Of a stretch of DNA of 64,000 nt, positions 113 to 64,000 are shown piece by piece. The translations under genes and the position numbers were made by a program. The notes below the pieces were generated by a model. It was not told the DNA's origin. It saw only the letters and a program-made list of their open reading frames with translations, and searched no databases. Source of the stretch: Epidermidibacterium keratini (GTDB taxonomy: Bacteria; Actinomycetota; Actinomycetes; Mycobacteriales; Antricoccaceae); contig NZ_CP047156.1 of assembly GCF_009834025.1 (NCBI RefSeq), forward strand, positions 1,860,001-1,924,000, written 5' to 3'. Every line of letters begins with the position of its first letter. The first letter of the stretch is position 1.

Positions 113-174
113 TGACCCATCCGTGGTGCCTCGACCCCGGTTATAACCGGGGTCGAGGCGTCATAAGTGGGTCA
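113..174. repeat. 62-bp imperfect palindrome, copy A1 (downstream of nuclease gene)
   Basis: This imperfect inverted repeat is centred between 143 and 144. The inner arms (128-143 / 144-159) are a perfect 16-bp palindrome around CCCCGGTTATAACCGGGG. The outer arms (113-119 / 168-174, TGACCCA / TGGGTCA) also pair. A second copy in the same orientation lies at 1248-1309 with about seven differences, so the nuclease-like gene between them is bracketed by direct repeats of a palindrome. It could also act as a transcription terminator, but it has no T-tract. It occupies most of the gap 75-225. Confidence 0.85.
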
Positions 175-225: not shown

Positions 226-1164
226 TCAGCCGGCCAACGGGTCACGGTGGTCGGCGCTCGCCCGGCGCAGTCGCGCGATCAACGCACGCGGGGTGTGGAA
301 GTCCGACCAGACCACCCGTTCCACGCCAAACCGCAGCCGGCGCAGTCGGTCCTCGCGCTGCTTCTCCTCCCACAGCGGCTCGCCTCGCCTGTCTGGCCGG
401 TCTCGTCCATACTTGACCTTGCCGTCGAACTCGACCAACAGCCGCGTCCCCCGCACCCGAAAGTCGGCCCGCGCGAAGAGCTGCGCTCCGTCGTACACCT
501 CGAACTGCGGCTCCATCGCGATCCCGGCGCGCGCCGCAATCACTCGCAACACAGACTCCCCCGGCGATTCAGTCAGCGGCTCCAACATGCCGAGCGCCTC
601 TCGGGCGACCGCACGCCCGGGGAACGACGCAAACGTCGCACAGATCGCCGCGAGCTCGTCTCTCGAGCTCGACTTGCGGTGCAACATCGCGTCACCGGCG
701 ACCACCGCGGCAAGCAAACCCTGGCGCGAGGCGACCTGCAAAAACGCCGCCGGCTCGGTCACCGCGTTGATCAGCCCCACGCGTTCCTGCGGGAAGGTGA
801 GCGTCGAGCGGATGATCTGCAGCGGCCCGCTCACCCGCGATGAGCCCCCATTGCGCCACAACAGATGAGCGCGGGCGAGGTCGGCCTCGTACGTCGGAAG
901 TCCGTGCGCAACCAGGGCCGAATAGCTCGCGGCGACGATCCGGTCGCCATACCGGTGCATCGCCGCCGACAGCAGCTCCAGGTGTCGCGCGCTAAGACTG
1001 ACCGGTTCGGGTGCAATCGAGTAGAGGTCGTGGGCCAGTTTTCGGATGCGCCCGTCACGGACCAGCTTGGTGAGCACCGGCCGGCTCACCCCGGCGTGGC
1101 ACGCCTGCTGCCAGGTAAACGCTCCGTCCGAAGACGCGAGCGCGGCGAGGATCTCCGCTTCCAT
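226..1164 (-). CDS. AbiEi-like N-terminal / PD-(D/E)XK (DUF559/Vsr-like) nuclease-like protein
   Basis: This 312-aa protein belongs to the large actinobacterial family annotated as AbiEi antitoxin-domain or DUF559 endonuclease-domain proteins. Residues 1-60 form a winged-helix-like AbiEi segment (WQQACHAGVSRPVLTKLVRD...). The middle carries a conserved linker with VTEPAAFLQVA and AVVAGDAMLHR. Residues from about 200 form a PD-(D/E)XK-type fold with a Glu in PGESVLR, an Asp in ARADFRV and the core EFDGK, followed by KQREDRLRRL. The catalytic residues E, D and E-x-D-G-K are all present, so activity is plausible. The gene is monocistronic, lies between two copies of a 62-bp palindrome, and has a perfect DnaA-box 9-mer 55 bp upstream. 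No substrate or partner is visible. Confidence 0.8.
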   Translation of the reverse strand: MEAEILAALASSDGAFTWQQACHAGVSRPVLTKLVRDGRIRKLAHDLYSIAPEPVSLSARHLELLSAAMHRYGDRIVAASYSALVAHGLPTYEADLARAHLLWRNGGSSRVSGPLQIIRSTLTFPQERVGLINAVTEPAAFLQVASRQGLLAAVVAGDAMLHRKSSSRDELAAICATFASFPGRAVAREALGMLEPLTESPGESVLRVIAARAGIAMEPQFEVYDGAQLFARADFRVRGTRLLVEFDGKVKYGRDRPDRRGEPLWEEKQREDRLRRLRFGVERVVWSDFHTPRALIARLRRASADHRDPLAG

Positions 1165-1227: not shown

Positions 1228-1247
1228 CCAGTCACCGCGCTGGGCGC

Positions 1248-1309
1248 TGACCCATCCGTGGCGTCTCGACCCCGGTCATAACTGGGGTCGAGGCGTCACA
1301 CATGGGTCA
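1248..1309. repeat. 62-bp imperfect palindrome, copy A2 (upstream of nuclease gene)
   Basis: Direct-repeat partner of the copy at 113-174, offset by 1135 bp. Both begin TGACCCATCCGTGG and end GGGTCA. The inner palindrome is CCCCGGTCATAACTGGGG with one mismatch and one G-T pair. It lies between the end of the SDR gene and the start of the nuclease-like gene. Confidence 0.85.
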
Positions 1310-1349
1310 CCGCACGATGGACGGTACGGCGAGCTCGGGTAGAGATGAC

Positions 1350-17503: not shown

Positions 17504-17544
17504 TGTAGTTATCCACCGGAGTTATCCACATGTGGATAACTACA
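17504..17544. promoter_or_regulatory. Cluster of DnaA boxes outside oriC
   Basis: Two perfect DnaA boxes abut head to head, TTATCCACA (17522-17530) and TGTGGATAA (17531-17539). A third near-perfect box TTATCCACC lies at 17509-17517. Together they form overlapping palindromes; the outer one pairs TGTAGTTATCCAC with GTGGATAACTACA. The cluster lies just past crgA, about 38 kb from oriC. It may titrate DnaA or act as a hairpin terminator; the sequence alone cannot decide. Confidence 0.6.
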
Positions 17545-17556
17545 CCGCTGTCATTC

Positions 17557-17615
17557 ATCTGCGGTGGAACCCGACACGCTATGCGGCTCATAGCGTGCCG
17601 GGTTCCACCGCAGAT
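17557..17615. repeat. 59-bp palindromic element D (orphan)
   Basis: Perfectly paired 24-bp arms (17557-17580 / 17592-17615) flank an 11-nt centre ATGCGGCTCAT. The outer 15 bases (ATCTGCGGTGGAACC) are identical to those of the pair flanking the nuclease-like gene at 25 kb. The centre resembles that of the element at 52235-52293. Here no nuclease gene is adjacent: it sits between the convergent ends of crgA and an acyl-CoA dehydrogenase gene. Confidence 0.85.
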
Positions 17616-25212: not shown

Positions 25213-25271
25213 ATCTGCGGTGGAACCTCTAACGCTATTGGCCGACTAGCGCTAGAGGTTCCACCGCAGGT
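25213..25271. repeat. 59-bp palindromic element C1 (upstream of nuclease-like gene)
   Basis: Twenty-four-bp arms (25213-25236 / 25248-25271, one G-T pair) flank an 11-nt centre ATTGGCCGACT. The near-identical copy C2 lies in the same orientation at 26346-26404 beyond the nuclease-like gene. The 55-bp core differs at about three positions. The arms share CTGCGGTGGAACC with element D. Confidence 0.88.
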
Positions 25272-25292
25272 GGCTCAGGCGTACGACGAAGC

Positions 25293-25301
25293 TGTGGATA
25301 A
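25293..25301 (+). promoter_or_regulatory. Perfect DnaA-box 9-mer upstream of nuclease-like gene
   Basis: TGTGGATAA lies between palindrome C1 and the start codon (38 bp upstream). It repeats the arrangement seen at 1219-1227 for the first nuclease-like gene. Function is inferred only. Confidence 0.5.
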
Positions 25302-25338
25302 GTCAGAGTGCGGCCATCGATGCGGGCATCCTCAAGGC

Positions 25339-26388
25339 ATGAGCAGAAGCGACGCGCGCGATCCCGCTCAGGCCTCCCGAGCCCTCAGCAATCCAGGTAT
25401 TGGGCCTCGCGCAGAATGGCTGGACGCGGGCGCAACCCACCGAATGTTTCTGGACGGCCGCCTCATGCAGCTCGGGTACGACCTATGGGCCTTGCCGGAG
25501 GCGTGGCGCGCCGACCCGCTCGCCCTCCTGCGCCAGGTGCTGCCCCCGGAGGCGATCTTGAGCGGGTGGGCCTGTGCCATGGTGTGCGGCGTACGCGACG
25601 CGGGCCCGTCGATGGCACCCGGTCTTGCGCGTGGGATCCCGATCTACCTGCCACGGCACATCAACAAAGGCCCCGCAGCGTTTCAGGTGCTGCGATGCGA
25701 CCTGGGTGAGGATGAGTGGCAGGCGGCGCAGGGCACCCGGCTCGCTACGCCGGCCCGTGCGGCGTACGACATGATCCGCTTCTGTCGACCCCTGTCGTCC
25801 GGTGTCTCGGTGGGGGATTGCTTTGCCTGGCAGCACAACCCATCCCCGGTCACCGGCGCCGAGCTGCTGCAACTCGTGGATACGCACCCGCGAGCGCGGG
25901 GCAACCCGCGAGTACGCCGAGCCGCCCCGCTGATGAGCGACCGTGCCCGTTCGATCGCCGAGACGAAGCTGCGCCTGCGGTGGCTCGAGGACGTCGGGCT
26001 GCTTGCGTACGACGTACTGGTCAACGCGACCCTCACGGCACCGAACGGCGCGGAATTCGAGATCGACCTCATCGACACCCGACACGGCATCGCCGCCGAG
26101 TACGACGGCGCACACCACGCCGACTCCGACCAACGCTCGCGCGACTCTCGCAAGGACCAGGCCGTCTACGATGCCGGGCTCACGATGGTGCGCTACAACG
26201 CACCGGATCTGCAGTCGACGCCCGGCCAGTTCAGCAGCCATTTCGCTACGCGTCGCCGCATCGCCCTCGATCGAGGCTGCGACGTGGCAGTGCGCCGGCT
26301 GCTGCAGGACGGCGTACTCGTCGAGCGACCCCTGCGCAACTATCGACCTGCGGTGGAACCTCTAACGCTATTGGCCGATTATCGTTAG
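25339..26388 (+). CDS. DUF559/Vsr-like PD-(D/E)XK-fold protein
   Basis: This 349-aa protein is of the same broad family as the one at 226-1164. The N-terminal half carries the family linker (TRLATPARAAYDMIRFCRPL and DTHPRARGNPRVRRA). The C-terminal domain has Glu in IAETKLRLRWL, Asp in FEIDLIDT, and AAEYDGAHH, where the usual Lys/His after E-x-D-G is a His pair, then RSRDSRKDQAVYDAG. The frame is open from a GTG at 25270, but the ATG at 25339 is preferred because the upstream part lies in palindrome and leader sequence. Its TAG stop lies inside the right arm of palindrome C2, so the last 13 or so residues are palindrome-encoded. Confidence 0.8.
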   Translation: MSRSDARDPAQASRALSNPGIGPRAEWLDAGATHRMFLDGRLMQLGYDLWALPEAWRADPLALLRQVLPPEAILSGWACAMVCGVRDAGPSMAPGLARGIPIYLPRHINKGPAAFQVLRCDLGEDEWQAAQGTRLATPARAAYDMIRFCRPLSSGVSVGDCFAWQHNPSPVTGAELLQLVDTHPRARGNPRVRRAAPLMSDRARSIAETKLRLRWLEDVGLLAYDVLVNATLTAPNGAEFEIDLIDTRHGIAAEYDGAHHADSDQRSRDSRKDQAVYDAGLTMVRYNAPDLQSTPGQFSSHFATRRRIALDRGCDVAVRRLLQDGVLVERPLRNYRPAVEPLTLLADYR

Positions 26389-26404
26389 AGGTTCCACCGC
26401 AGAT
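26346..26404. repeat. 59-bp palindromic element C2 (overlaps 3' end of nuclease-like gene)
   Basis: Twenty-four-bp arms (26346-26369 / 26381-26404, two mismatched pairs) flank ATTGGCCGATT. It is a direct repeat of C1, 1133 bp downstream. It also supplies the stop codon of the nuclease-like gene and ends 3 bp before the convergent lipoprotein gene. Confidence 0.88.
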
Positions 26405-44131: not shown

Positions 44132-44168
44132 CGTAGCGTTTCAGTCACCAGGTGACTGAAACGCTACG
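44132..44168. terminator. Near-perfect 37-bp palindrome between convergent TetR and tRNA-Ala
   Basis: Perfect 18-bp arms (44132-44149 / 44151-44168, core GTTTCAGTCACC / GGTGACTGAAAC) surround a single central A. It lies 23 bp past the TetR stop and faces the tRNA-Ala 3' end, so a bidirectional terminator is likely. The tiny loop and length are unusual; a protein-binding or cruciform role is possible. It is not related to the 59-bp elements. Confidence 0.6.
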
Positions 44169-52165: not shown

Positions 52166-52234
52166 GCGGCCCATCCTATCCGCGACGCCCGGTCACGGTG
52201 CTCGAGCAAACCCGAGGCCCACGTCTCAAGCCCG

Positions 52235-52293
52235 ACGCGCGGTGGGTTTTACCCCGCTCTGCGGCTGATAGCGGGGCATAACCCACCGCGCGT
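52235..52293. repeat. 59-bp palindromic element E (orphan)
   Basis: Twenty-four-bp arms (52235-52258 / 52270-52293, two mismatched pairs) flank an 11-nt centre CTGCGGCTGAT. Geometry equals elements C1, C2 and D. The arms share GCGGTGG and the final CGCT with them but differ elsewhere, and the differences are mirrored in the opposite arm. It lies between the recF stop and the dciA start. Confidence 0.82.
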
Positions 52294-52297
52294 GGGG

Positions 52298-61597: not shown

Positions 61598-63025
61598 ATG
61601 GCTTTCGAACGATCCAAGCTCGGCTGGCCCCGTCGCCGGTTTGCCGCGGCCCCGGCCGAGGACCACTCTTCTGCGCTCGGTTGGCCGACGGTTTCACGTG
61701 AAACATCGACTGCACCATCGGCCAGCCCGCAGGGTGGACCGGCCGATACCGCGTCGCTGGCGCCTTCAGACGACCTCGGGGCCGATGTTTCACGTGAAAC
61801 ATCCGGTAGCGTGCCGGCCACCGATGATCTGGGTCCGGCAACGAGCGAGATCCCGGCGACCGCGCTGCCGGTGGACACCCCCGACGTGACCGGACCGCCG
61901 CAGTTGCGCACCTTGGCCGATGTGGCCGTTGGTCCGGATGAAGAACCGGCAACCGGAAACATCGCGGCTGCGGGCGCTGAGGCGGACGAGTACGCCGCAG
62001 ACCTGGCAGAGGCTGCCGAGGCGTCCAGTGACAATCCGCCCCGGGGCGAGGCCGATGCGGCTACCGACGGCGTGGAGGTAGCGAACACCGCAACGAGCAC
62101 CGACGCTGCCGAGAGCACTGTGCCGGAGCCAAGCTCGGTGTCGCCTGACGCGCTGGAACAGGATGTTTCACGTGAAACCCCCGCCCCGGTGACCGAGCAG
62201 CTGCCGCGTCCCGACACGACCCGCGTCTTGACGATCTCGAACCAGAAGGGCGGCGTCGGTAAAACGACCACGACGGTCAATCTCGCGGTTGCCCTTGCGA
62301 TGCGCGGCGCGCGCGTGCTGGTCGTCGACCTTGACCCCCAGGGCAACGCGAGCACCGGGCTGGACATCGACCACCCAAACGGGACGCCTTCGACCTACAA
62401 CGTGATTGTGGACAAGGCCTCGATCGCTGATACGGCGCAACCGGTGACGACCGAAGGTATCCCCGACGGCGCCCTGCTGTGCGTGCCGGCCACAAGTGAT
62501 CTCGCCGGTGCCGAAGTCGAGCTTGCGGCCGTCGTCGTCGGGCGGGAGTTCCGCCTGAAGCAGGCCATTGATGCGTTCGTGGCGGCCCATACCGGTGATG
62601 ACCGCTTCGACTACGTCTTTATCGACTGCCCGCCGTCGCTGGGCCTGCTGACCGTCAACGCCCTTGCTGCCGCAGGCGAAGTCCTGATTCCGATCCAGTG
62701 CGAGTACTACGCGCTGGAGGGCCTCGGCCAGCTGCTGGAGACGATCGAGCTGATCCACGGCTACCTGAACCCGTCGCTGCACATCTCGACAATGCTGCTC
62801 ACAATGTTCGATGCCCGCACTAAACTTGCAGGTCAGGTCGTCGATGAGGTGCGCGAGCATTTCGGCGATACGGTCATGCGCACGATCATTCCGCGCAGCG
62901 TCAAGGTCTCCGAGGCGCCGAGCTATCGCCAGTCGGTCATGACGTACGATCCTATGTCGCGGGGCGCGACGTCCTATCTCGCGGCAGCCCGCGAGTTTGC
63001 CGAGCGCGGCCCTCGCAATCATTGA
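61598..63025 (+). CDS. parA: ParA chromosome-partitioning ATPase with long N-terminal extension
   Basis: This 475-aa protein has about 205 N-terminal Ala/Pro/Asp/Glu-rich residues ahead of a normal ParA domain. The ATPase has the deviant Walker A SNQKGGVGKTTTTVNLA (Lys about 217), VVDLDPQGNASTGL, FIDCPPSLGLLTVNAL and IPIQCEYYALEGLGQL. The extension encodes three parS sites, visible as VSRETS, DVSRETSG and DVSRETP. Start ATG 61598 with GAGAGAGG upstream. Works with ParB in origin segregation. Confidence 0.95.
   Translation: MAFERSKLGWPRRRFAAAPAEDHSSALGWPTVSRETSTAPSASPQGGPADTASLAPSDDLGADVSRETSGSVPATDDLGPATSEIPATALPVDTPDVTGPPQLRTLADVAVGPDEEPATGNIAAAGAEADEYAADLAEAAEASSDNPPRGEADAATDGVEVANTATSTDAAESTVPEPSSVSPDALEQDVSRETPAPVTEQLPRPDTTRVLTISNQKGGVGKTTTTVNLAVALAMRGARVLVVDLDPQGNASTGLDIDHPNGTPSTYNVIVDKASIADTAQPVTTEGIPDGALLCVPATSDLAGAEVELAAVVVGREFRLKQAIDAFVAAHTGDDRFDYVFIDCPPSLGLLTVNALAAAGEVLIPIQCEYYALEGLGQLLETIELIHGYLNPSLHISTMLLTMFDARTKLAGQVVDEVREHFGDTVMRTIIPRSVKVSEAPSYRQSVMTYDPMSRGATSYLAAAREFAERGPRNH
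61691..61704. other. parS site 1 (in parA)
   Basis: Perfect palindrome GTTTCACGTGAAAC, the universal ParB-binding parS. It encodes VSRET in the ParA extension. Confidence 0.95.
61787..61800. other. parS site 2 (in parA)
   Basis: GTTTCACGTGAAAC flanked by T and A, giving the full 16-mer consensus. It encodes DVSRETS. Confidence 0.97.
62165..62178. other. parS site 3 (in parA)
   Basis: Perfect GTTTCACGTGAAAC, encoding DVSRETP just before the ParA ATPase domain. Confidence 0.95.
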
Positions 63026-63088
63026 TACTGAACGAGGCACGCCGAATCGTCGGTGTGATTCCTCGGTGCTCTCGGAAGGTCGTGAAGC

Positions 63089-64000
63089 GTGGCCGACAAC
63101 GACAAGAAGACCGAGCCGCCTACTAAACGCGGCGGTCTCGGCCGGGGCCTCGGCGCGCTGATCCCCAGTGCCCCGCTGGGCGGCGGCGCCGGAAAGGGCC
63201 ACTTCTGGAGCGCCCTCGACAACCCTCCGACGGTGGATCCGGCCAGTGCGGTGACGCTTCCCGATATCGCGCCGCAGCCGGTCCCCGGGCAGCAGGAGGA
63301 GGCAACCTCCACCGACACCGAGGCAACAACCGCCGCCGCACCCGCGGCCGAGCCGGAGTCCGCCGCCGATGTTTCACGTGAAACGGCGGCCAGCGCATCC
63401 GAGGGTCGCGAGAGTGCCAATGCCGACAGCGACGCCGATGTTTCACGTGAAACCGGCGACGCGGATGCCTGGACGAAGGTGCAAGACGACTCGACGGACG
63501 AGCCGGCTGGCGGCGAGGTCTCCGGCGCCGCGGTTCTGATCGAGATCGCGCCCGACGACGTCGTCGCCAACCCGAAGAACCCGCGGCAGGTCTTCGACGA
63601 GGACGAGCTCGCCGAGCTCGCCGCCTCGGTCGCGGAGTTCGGGCTGCTGCAACCGATCGTGGTTCGTCGCCGCGAGGACGGCGCGCACGAGCTGGTCATG
63701 GGTGAGCGTCGTCTTCGCGCCTCCCGGCTGGCGGGGTTGGAGACCATCCCGGCCATCGTTCGGCGTACCGAAGACGAAGACATGCTGCGCGACGCGCTGC
63801 TGGAGAACATTCACCGCGTGCAGCTGCACCCACTGGAAGAGGCTGCGGCCTATCAGCAGCTCATCGACGAGTTCGGCGTGACCCACGAGCAGCTTGCGCA
63901 GCGGATCAAGCGCAGCCGCCCGGTCATCAGCAATACGATCCGCCTGCTAAAGCTCCCGGTCCGCGTGCAGAACCGGGTCGCCGCAGGCGTCATCTCCGGC
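63089..64000 (+). CDS. parB: ParB chromosome-partitioning protein (partial, runs off the end)
   Basis: At least 304 residues are present. It starts GTG 63089 with GGAAGG upstream and reads [10 protein letters not shown], then [14 protein letters not shown], the ParA-stimulating box. A roughly 110-residue disordered segment containing two DVSRET peptides follows. The ParB/sulfiredoxin CTPase domain starts near residue 148 ([53 protein letters not shown]). The helix-turn-helix ([20 protein letters not shown]) begins near 264. The dimer domain lies beyond the window. Confidence 0.96.
63371..63384. other. parS site 4 (in parB)
   Basis: Perfect GTTTCACGTGAAAC encoding DVSRETA inside the ParB N-terminal segment. 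Confidence 0.95.
63440..63453. other. parS site 5 (in parB)
   Basis: Perfect GTTTCACGTGAAAC encoding DVSRETG, 69 bp (23 codons) after site 4 and in the same frame. Confidence 0.95.

Follow-up and report, generated by a model that had tools for sequence, protein, structure and literature searches.

A gene for a putative AbiEi-Vsr nuclease of Epidermidibacterium keratini is bracketed by two near-identical palindromes, family-specific copies of such palindromes are dispersed through the same genome, and at a site orthologous to that of a related cassette the gene is absent and a single palindrome stands in its place. The bracketing anatomy is firm, and the view that bracketed genes and their palindromes belong to one another is well supported. 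These findings suggest a little-recognised enzyme-repeat partnership, akin to the REP repeats of other bacteria. The gene lies in a stretch of 64,000 nucleotides, here called the window, which comprises bases 1,860,001-1,924,000 of the 4.02 Mb host genome.

The gene (25339..26388, plus strand, 349 aa) is flanked by cyclophilin (PF00160) and DUF2020 (PF09449) genes, both on the minus strand. On its upstream side lies palindrome C1 (25212..25272, family F1), with a 53-bp core TGCGG...CCGCA at 25216-25268, and on its downstream side palindrome C2 (26346..26405, core 26349-26401), no strand being assigned to these or to the other palindromes. As direct repeats, C1 (25215-25273) and C2 (26348-26406) have 93% identity and a spacing of 1133 bp, and the hairpins predicted for them contain at least 20 pairs each (z -9.1 and -10.2), with none of 200 shuffles equally stable. 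At the chosen threshold the window contained seven palindromes, against none in each of three mononucleotide shuffles. A TGTGGATAA box, DnaA-box-like by motif, was located at 25293-25301 on the plus strand between C1 and the start codon, and the window held five such 9-mers against 0.02 expected. An earlier note on this DNA had described a gene between near-identical direct-repeat palindromes with TGTGGATAA ahead of the start codon, and both points were borne out.

A protein search of the host genome (G000) recovered three further full-length relatives, with 43-47% identity to the window protein. All four paralogues were bracketed by palindrome pairs, the four pairs differing in sequence, and the spacing of the other three was about 1129, 1135 and 1187 bp. 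Three of the four genes have TGTGGATAA in the interval from palindrome to start, and the fourth has TGTGGACAA there. The earlier note had also placed the gene's stop codon inside the downstream palindrome; this holds for the window gene, whose reading frame ends within C2, and for L010, but not for L011 and L012, and stop-in-palindrome was therefore rejected as a general feature, being true of only two of the four paralogues. Across the five genomes of the host family, six of seven subfamily members carried a palindrome pair, the seventh (L127) having a palindrome on one side only, and no pair was present at another homologue in the host genome (L135) or at the homologues L129 and L132 of G001. 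Nine palindromes were measured in G000, G003 and G004; from one outer CGG-type end to the other, eight of them extended over 53 bp, the ninth being cut at 51. As regards an insertion sequence or transposon, no second identical copy of the window cassette was found in the genome.

Another cassette in the window, cassette 1, consists of a minus-strand gene with an AbiEi_4-like start (226..1164) and palindromes on its start side (1244..1313) and stop side (113..174). The two window cassettes had been called independent, which is too strong because their genes are distant homologues: the two proteins share 17% identity, and the cassette 1 protein matched a profile of the four paralogues at E 1.5e-4. 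The repeat spacing, from which a common layout had been argued, is indeed nearly equal (1133 vs 1135 bp), but it mirrors only the similar length of the genes. Elsewhere in the window, a solo palindrome at 17557..17615, grouped with family F1b, brackets no nuclease gene, and a further solo palindrome of a CGCGG-ended type, with a 53-bp core as well, lies at 52231..52297. Another dispersed palindrome family, CGTAGCGTTTCAGTCACC / GGTGACTGAAACGCTACG or close variants, was observed at 44132-44168 of the window and at L220:3738, L219:848 and L230:17698. Several repeats resembling TGTTTCACGTGAAACA, presumably parS-like, occur at 61686-63458.

As modelled, the window protein is an AbiEi-like part fused to a nuclease of the Vsr / I-Bth0305I type. 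An AlphaFold2 model (pLDDT 87.6, pTM 0.85) was compared with known structures in VIA-align 2, a re-alignment of Foldseek's own candidates. Residues 54-200 (25498..25938, plus strand) take the fold of the AbiEi antitoxin 6y8q_A (Z 10.4, rmsd 3.9, 128 aligned), and residues 203-312 (25945..26274, plus strand) form a Vsr-type nuclease domain, which aligned with the homing endonuclease I-Bth0305I, 3r3p_A (Z 10.3, rmsd 3.1, 96 aligned), and with Vsr, 1cw0 (Z 10.0, rmsd 2.3, 100 aligned); the model also aligned with 3hrl (Z 9.7, 92 aligned), and these four structures are tied. Foldseek alone returned no match for the model at E <= 0.001. A profile of 37 family sequences matched 3hrl at 1.9e-6 and PvuRts1I at 1.7e-4, and the residues invariant in the family, in an alignment that drew on 36 of the 46 loci proteins considered below, include E208, D243, E254, D256, H259, H260 and D269. 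In Pfam, DUF559 fell under the cut-off (E 0.035) and DUF2726 barely above it, and NCBIfam held no family for the protein. Of the former label 'DUF559/Vsr-like', the Vsr-type domain was upheld by fold and family profile, but DUF559 was not.

The dispersed palindromes were surveyed through the frame TGCGG-N43-CCGCA, which occurred 104 times in the host genome against 25 for a reversed control pattern. Pairing was examined at the 81 of these 104 places that were listed: 66 were palindromes, in which no fewer than 10 of the 17 inner pairs were complementary, and the other 15 had seven at most. Those 66 fall into F1 (23), F1b (17), F3 (11), F2 (8), F4 (6) and one other, and so into no fewer than five sequence families, of which three match a bracketed gene. 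F1, F2 and F3 correspond to the window gene, L011 and L012, dispersed copies thus being observed for these three of the four types, and for F1b and F4, with the 17 and six copies listed, no matching gene was found in this genome. All 31 copies with the arms TGCGGTGGAACC and GGTTCCACCGCA measured 53 bp, the pattern having permitted 34-64. Twenty sampled stretches (400 kb) yielded 36 palindromes against two in Markov shuffles, a count that includes families with other ends; the G002 sample in this survey was spoilt by one masked stretch and supports a remark only. Frame and reversed-control counts in the host family were 104/25 (G000), 58/15 (G004), 46/14 (G003), 40/14 (G002) and 17/16 (G001). 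G001, which has only distant homologues of the gene, showed no frame excess. G002 showed an excess and no match to the gene profile, and palindromes can therefore outlive the gene or do without it. Solo palindromes tend to sit right behind stop codons; by a crude gene caller, seven of 17 lay between convergent genes, six between tandem and two between divergent ones, with two lacking a call. A further palindrome family, around ATGGAGCGTTGG, was observed at L216:11950, L216:8189, L217:5408 and L230:3530. The solo palindromes L113 and L114 (G000:1452708 and 1454783), 2 kb apart, share a 65-bp sequence and box, and are perhaps a local duplication.

To judge from the sequence, the dispersed palindromes may possibly adopt a hairpin form. 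Between families the arms covary, with 971 of 1122 cells paired against 607 expected on shuffling. Within families, we counted 146 one-arm changes, 23 complementary both-arm changes and nine both-arm changes that were not complementary, and pooled pairing was slightly above shuffles (958 vs 941, sd 6.4, 20/2000). The central bases of the frame paired no better than shuffles (106 vs 97; 194/2000). Since single-arm changes dominate within families and pairing there is barely above shuffles, conserved half-sites account for most of the symmetry. The argument that the arms covary perfectly and thereby prove a hairpin was rejected, covariation being weak within families.

Among more distant relatives of the same order, a clear palindrome pair was recognised by eye at 12 of 28 loci. 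We then considered 46 named relative loci, whose titles assign almost all of them to the Actinomycetota and a few to other or uncultured sources. At 16 of these the upstream and downstream repeats matched one another, as against three of 154 neighbouring control ORFs (Fisher p 3e-9); the other 30 failed. This direct-repeat test required a score above 22, about 300 cross-locus pairs reaching at most 22.6, and it replaced a first palindrome-pair test (10/46, including L077, an artefact of masked bases). Both copies were self-complementary (score of at least 18) at 12 of the 16 passing loci, the exceptions being L067, L070, L077 and L095, and six loci (L065, L066, L072, L087, L091 and L101) fell just below the line. 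L067, from a MAG titled Chloroflexi, carries a relative gene with non-palindromic direct repeats of about 75 bp on either side. Relatives were also sought in viral contigs, where 26 stretches matched a pattern and none was confirmed, and in plasmids and phages, where there was no match.

Protein identity correlated with palindrome similarity across 36 cassettes selected for a visible repeat pair (Spearman 0.32, with none of 2000 permutations as high), a relationship that is confounded by common descent and base composition; among pairs under 35% identity the value was 0.25. The set comprises 12 of the 28 loci L028-L055, 19 of the 46 loci L056-L101 and five from the host genome, and it includes L131, whose protein is a 600-aa stop-to-stop reading, and L077, whose repeat adjoins masked bases. 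The palindrome was common to proteins at 75% identity or more, partly common to some at 40-58%, and mostly unrelated-looking below that. A comparison of protein phylogeny with palindrome sequence had been proposed as a check, and this one, which was run in part, favours pairing.

The second proposed check, for strains that had lost the gene together with one palindrome, was run in part as well, in another genus, that of G018, where 121 genomes were searched and the loci of the best 30 were read. This genus has kept the flank of cassette L042. The gene stands between its two palindromes at L137, but L139, L140 and L141, matched on either flank, lack the gene and have a single palindrome. The gene is present with decayed palindromes at L138; at L142 an orthologous gene (75% DNA identity) has a palindrome pair of different sequence; a 90-base gene fragment is left at L143; and L158 and L159 have both flanks with neither gene nor palindrome. 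In the remaining 21 of the best 30 the right flank was unmatched, and neither a similar gene nor a similar palindrome was observed. As the gene is found at the orthologous site in G018, G087 and G076, and a fragment in G089, the order of events there is better read as gene loss. The G018-type palindrome (three mismatches at most) was present in five of the 121 genomes, the reversed control in none, with nine sites in G018, where the cassette is intact, four each in G048 and G153, and two each in G075 and G087. At the orthologous site each of the five has the gene or else a palindrome on its own, and several sites are common to these genomes, many solo sites being shared by descent. At four G018 sites the relatives showed the palindrome, one arm, an extended loop containing repeated units, or nothing at all, and no fresh insertion or target duplication could be read from these four comparisons.

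TGTGGATAA occurred near the gene start in six of the 46 named relatives and in none of 159 controls. The reading of TGTGGATAA as a DnaA box is a motif match only and was not accepted as settled; the motif also occurs beside solo palindromes and near genes without a palindrome, and in cassette 1 it runs in the opposite direction relative to its gene. By the solo palindrome at 17557..17615, a head-to-head TGTGGATAA pair (TTATCCACATGTGGATAA) at 17522-17539, likewise without assigned strand, is possibly a relic or a control site. A parallel arrangement was found in the same genome at G000:C1:2321892-2322438 (L120, L207), where a GIY-YIG gene (PF01541, E 1.3e-13) is enclosed by a pair of identical palindromes of 54 bp, of a different type, and preceded by CTGTGGATAAC. 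Twelve of the 24 CTGTGGATAAC copies in the genome are no more than 30 bp away from a palindrome, and a 13th is 60 bp away. The GIY-YIG gene is present a second time, incompletely, behind its stop-side palindrome.

The closest known arrangement is that of the REPtrons (TnpAREP / RAYT), in which, according to the available text of PMC6006769, each REP type generally comes with a single full-length tnpAREP that has REPs on either side. As in REPtrons, the palindromes here are dispersed, there is one full-length gene per palindrome type with same-type copies flanking it, the copies lie mostly near gene 3' ends, and the gene shows no obvious movement as a unit. In the sections available of PMC8266576 and PMC3733652, REP systems are characterised by a GTAG foot, an HUH enzyme and a preference for gene ends. 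In contrast, the bracketed gene here is AbiEi-Vsr by profile and fold and not an HUH/Y1 transposase, the palindromes are 53-61 bp long against the 20-40 bp given for REPs (PMC3733652, in part), and the hosts are actinobacterial relatives, the Actinobacteridae being reported in the same portion of PMC6006769 with only subclass 1.1 TnpAY1. No GTAG foot was seen at the printed flanks of the 31 exact-arm copies and the 66 palindromes, the TGCGG start being fixed by the pattern. I-Bth0305I shares the Vsr-type catalytic fold and, being an EDxHD enzyme that forms a dimer on a nearly 60-bp site (the review PMC3943268, as far as its available text goes), has a target near the palindrome in length; unlike it, the present gene lies between two whole palindromes, has an AbiEi-like part and sits in no intron or phage host gene. 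As for the homing features of EDxHD enzymes, a gene-less single-target allele was seen (L139, L140 and L141) and a target interrupted by the gene was not. The fold of residues 54-200 is that of the AbiEi antitoxin, which differs in that here it is fused to a nuclease with no AbiEii partner alongside. The catalytic domain is that of Vsr / DUF559 endonucleases (1cw0, 3hrl; Caulobacter VsrA, PMC12907096), from which the bracketing palindromes set the present genes apart, the string 'palindrom' occurring 0 times in the accessible text of the VsrA paper. By title and abstract start, no paper tying DUF559, Vsr-like, AbiEi or GIY-YIG genes to flanking palindromes was found in a search whose coverage excluded preprints and most subscription papers, and the part consulted of a 2025 REP survey (PMC12306157) mentions neither RAYT nor a nuclease.

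The most likely reading, to which we give about an even chance, is that of a REPtron-like system in which a PD-(D/E)XK nuclease takes the place of the HUH transposase. Such a system would have two parts, a 53-61-bp palindrome with many solo, mostly intergenic copies, and a single-copy gene for a nuclease, with an AbiEi-like DNA-binding part and a Vsr-type cutting domain, bracketed by its own palindrome. The protein would bind that palindrome, either as a dimer on both arms or on an extruded hairpin, and nick or cut it, whereupon host repair would copy the palindrome to new places; recombination between the bracketing copies would remove the gene and leave a solo palindrome. Recognition, binding, cutting, copying and mobilisation of the palindrome by the protein, and the gain of the gene, are the steps that we infer, and the reading as a whole could as readily fail as hold. 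The cognate nuclease-palindrome pairing put forward in the earlier note is sustained as an association by the correlation and by L139-L141 against L137, but stops short of recognition, because the correlation still contains the effects of descent and base composition, some families are gene-less and G002 has palindromes without the gene. Also counting against the REPtron-like reading are the relatives that fail the repeat test, the pairless homologues L135, L129 and L132, the decayed palindromes of L138, the weak arm covariation and the lack of fresh insertions.

Its nearest rival is homing-like behaviour, which we consider rather unlikely. A free-standing homing-endonuclease-like gene would cut the solo palindrome as its target, and repair from a filled copy would insert the gene between two copies. 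This agrees with I-Bth0305I being among the best nuclease folds and with the closeness of its dimer target to the palindromes in length (PMC3943268, as above), with another homing-endonuclease fold, GIY-YIG, between identical palindromes in the same genome, and with solo sites at the orthologous place. However, filled sites retain two whole palindromes, so that no protection from cutting would be expected; the gene copies are few and their palindromes differ, rather than one gene recurring in many palindromes; and gene loss is the better reading of the orthologous site. Alternatively, the palindromes could be transcription terminators, other host structures or neutral repeats that merely insulate the nuclease genes, the pairs arising via recombination between copies, a view that we hold to be unlikely. 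Their tendency to adjoin stop codons (7/17 between convergent genes) and their strong hairpins are in keeping with it, but neither C1 nor C2 has a terminator-like T run, matching flanking repeats are seldom found at neighbouring control ORFs, and each paralogue has its own sequence type. It is improbable that the gene is an AbiEi-type regulator or a toxin-antitoxin or defence gene with the palindromes as operators. PADLOC's AbiEi models recognise as many as 30 of the 37 aligned members, and the AbiEi fold and the TGTGGATAA before the start would fit; the window protein, however, has no PADLOC match at E 0.01, its neighbours in this one genome, the cyclophilin and DUF2020 genes, include no AbiEii toxin, and operators need neither a repeat behind the gene nor dispersal through the genome.

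Going beyond the REPtron-like reading, we suggest only tentatively that these genes and repeats form a new kind of palindrome-based repeat system, in a phylum from which REP transposases are reportedly absent. In such a system, nucleases of unrelated folds (AbiEi-Vsr and GIY-YIG) would each partner their own long palindrome, co-diversify in one genome as distinct pairs, and spread the palindrome by cutting it or its hairpin. Should the pairing prove to be recognition, a REPtron-like arrangement would have arisen with a nuclease unrelated to the HUH enzymes. In that case, too, very common and unexplained actinobacterial genes (DUF559/AbiEi-like) would acquire a substrate, and many of the palindromes between actinobacterial genes a source; the four pairs in one genome would then constitute an orthogonal set of nucleases and sites, in which a change of specificity could be tested directly.
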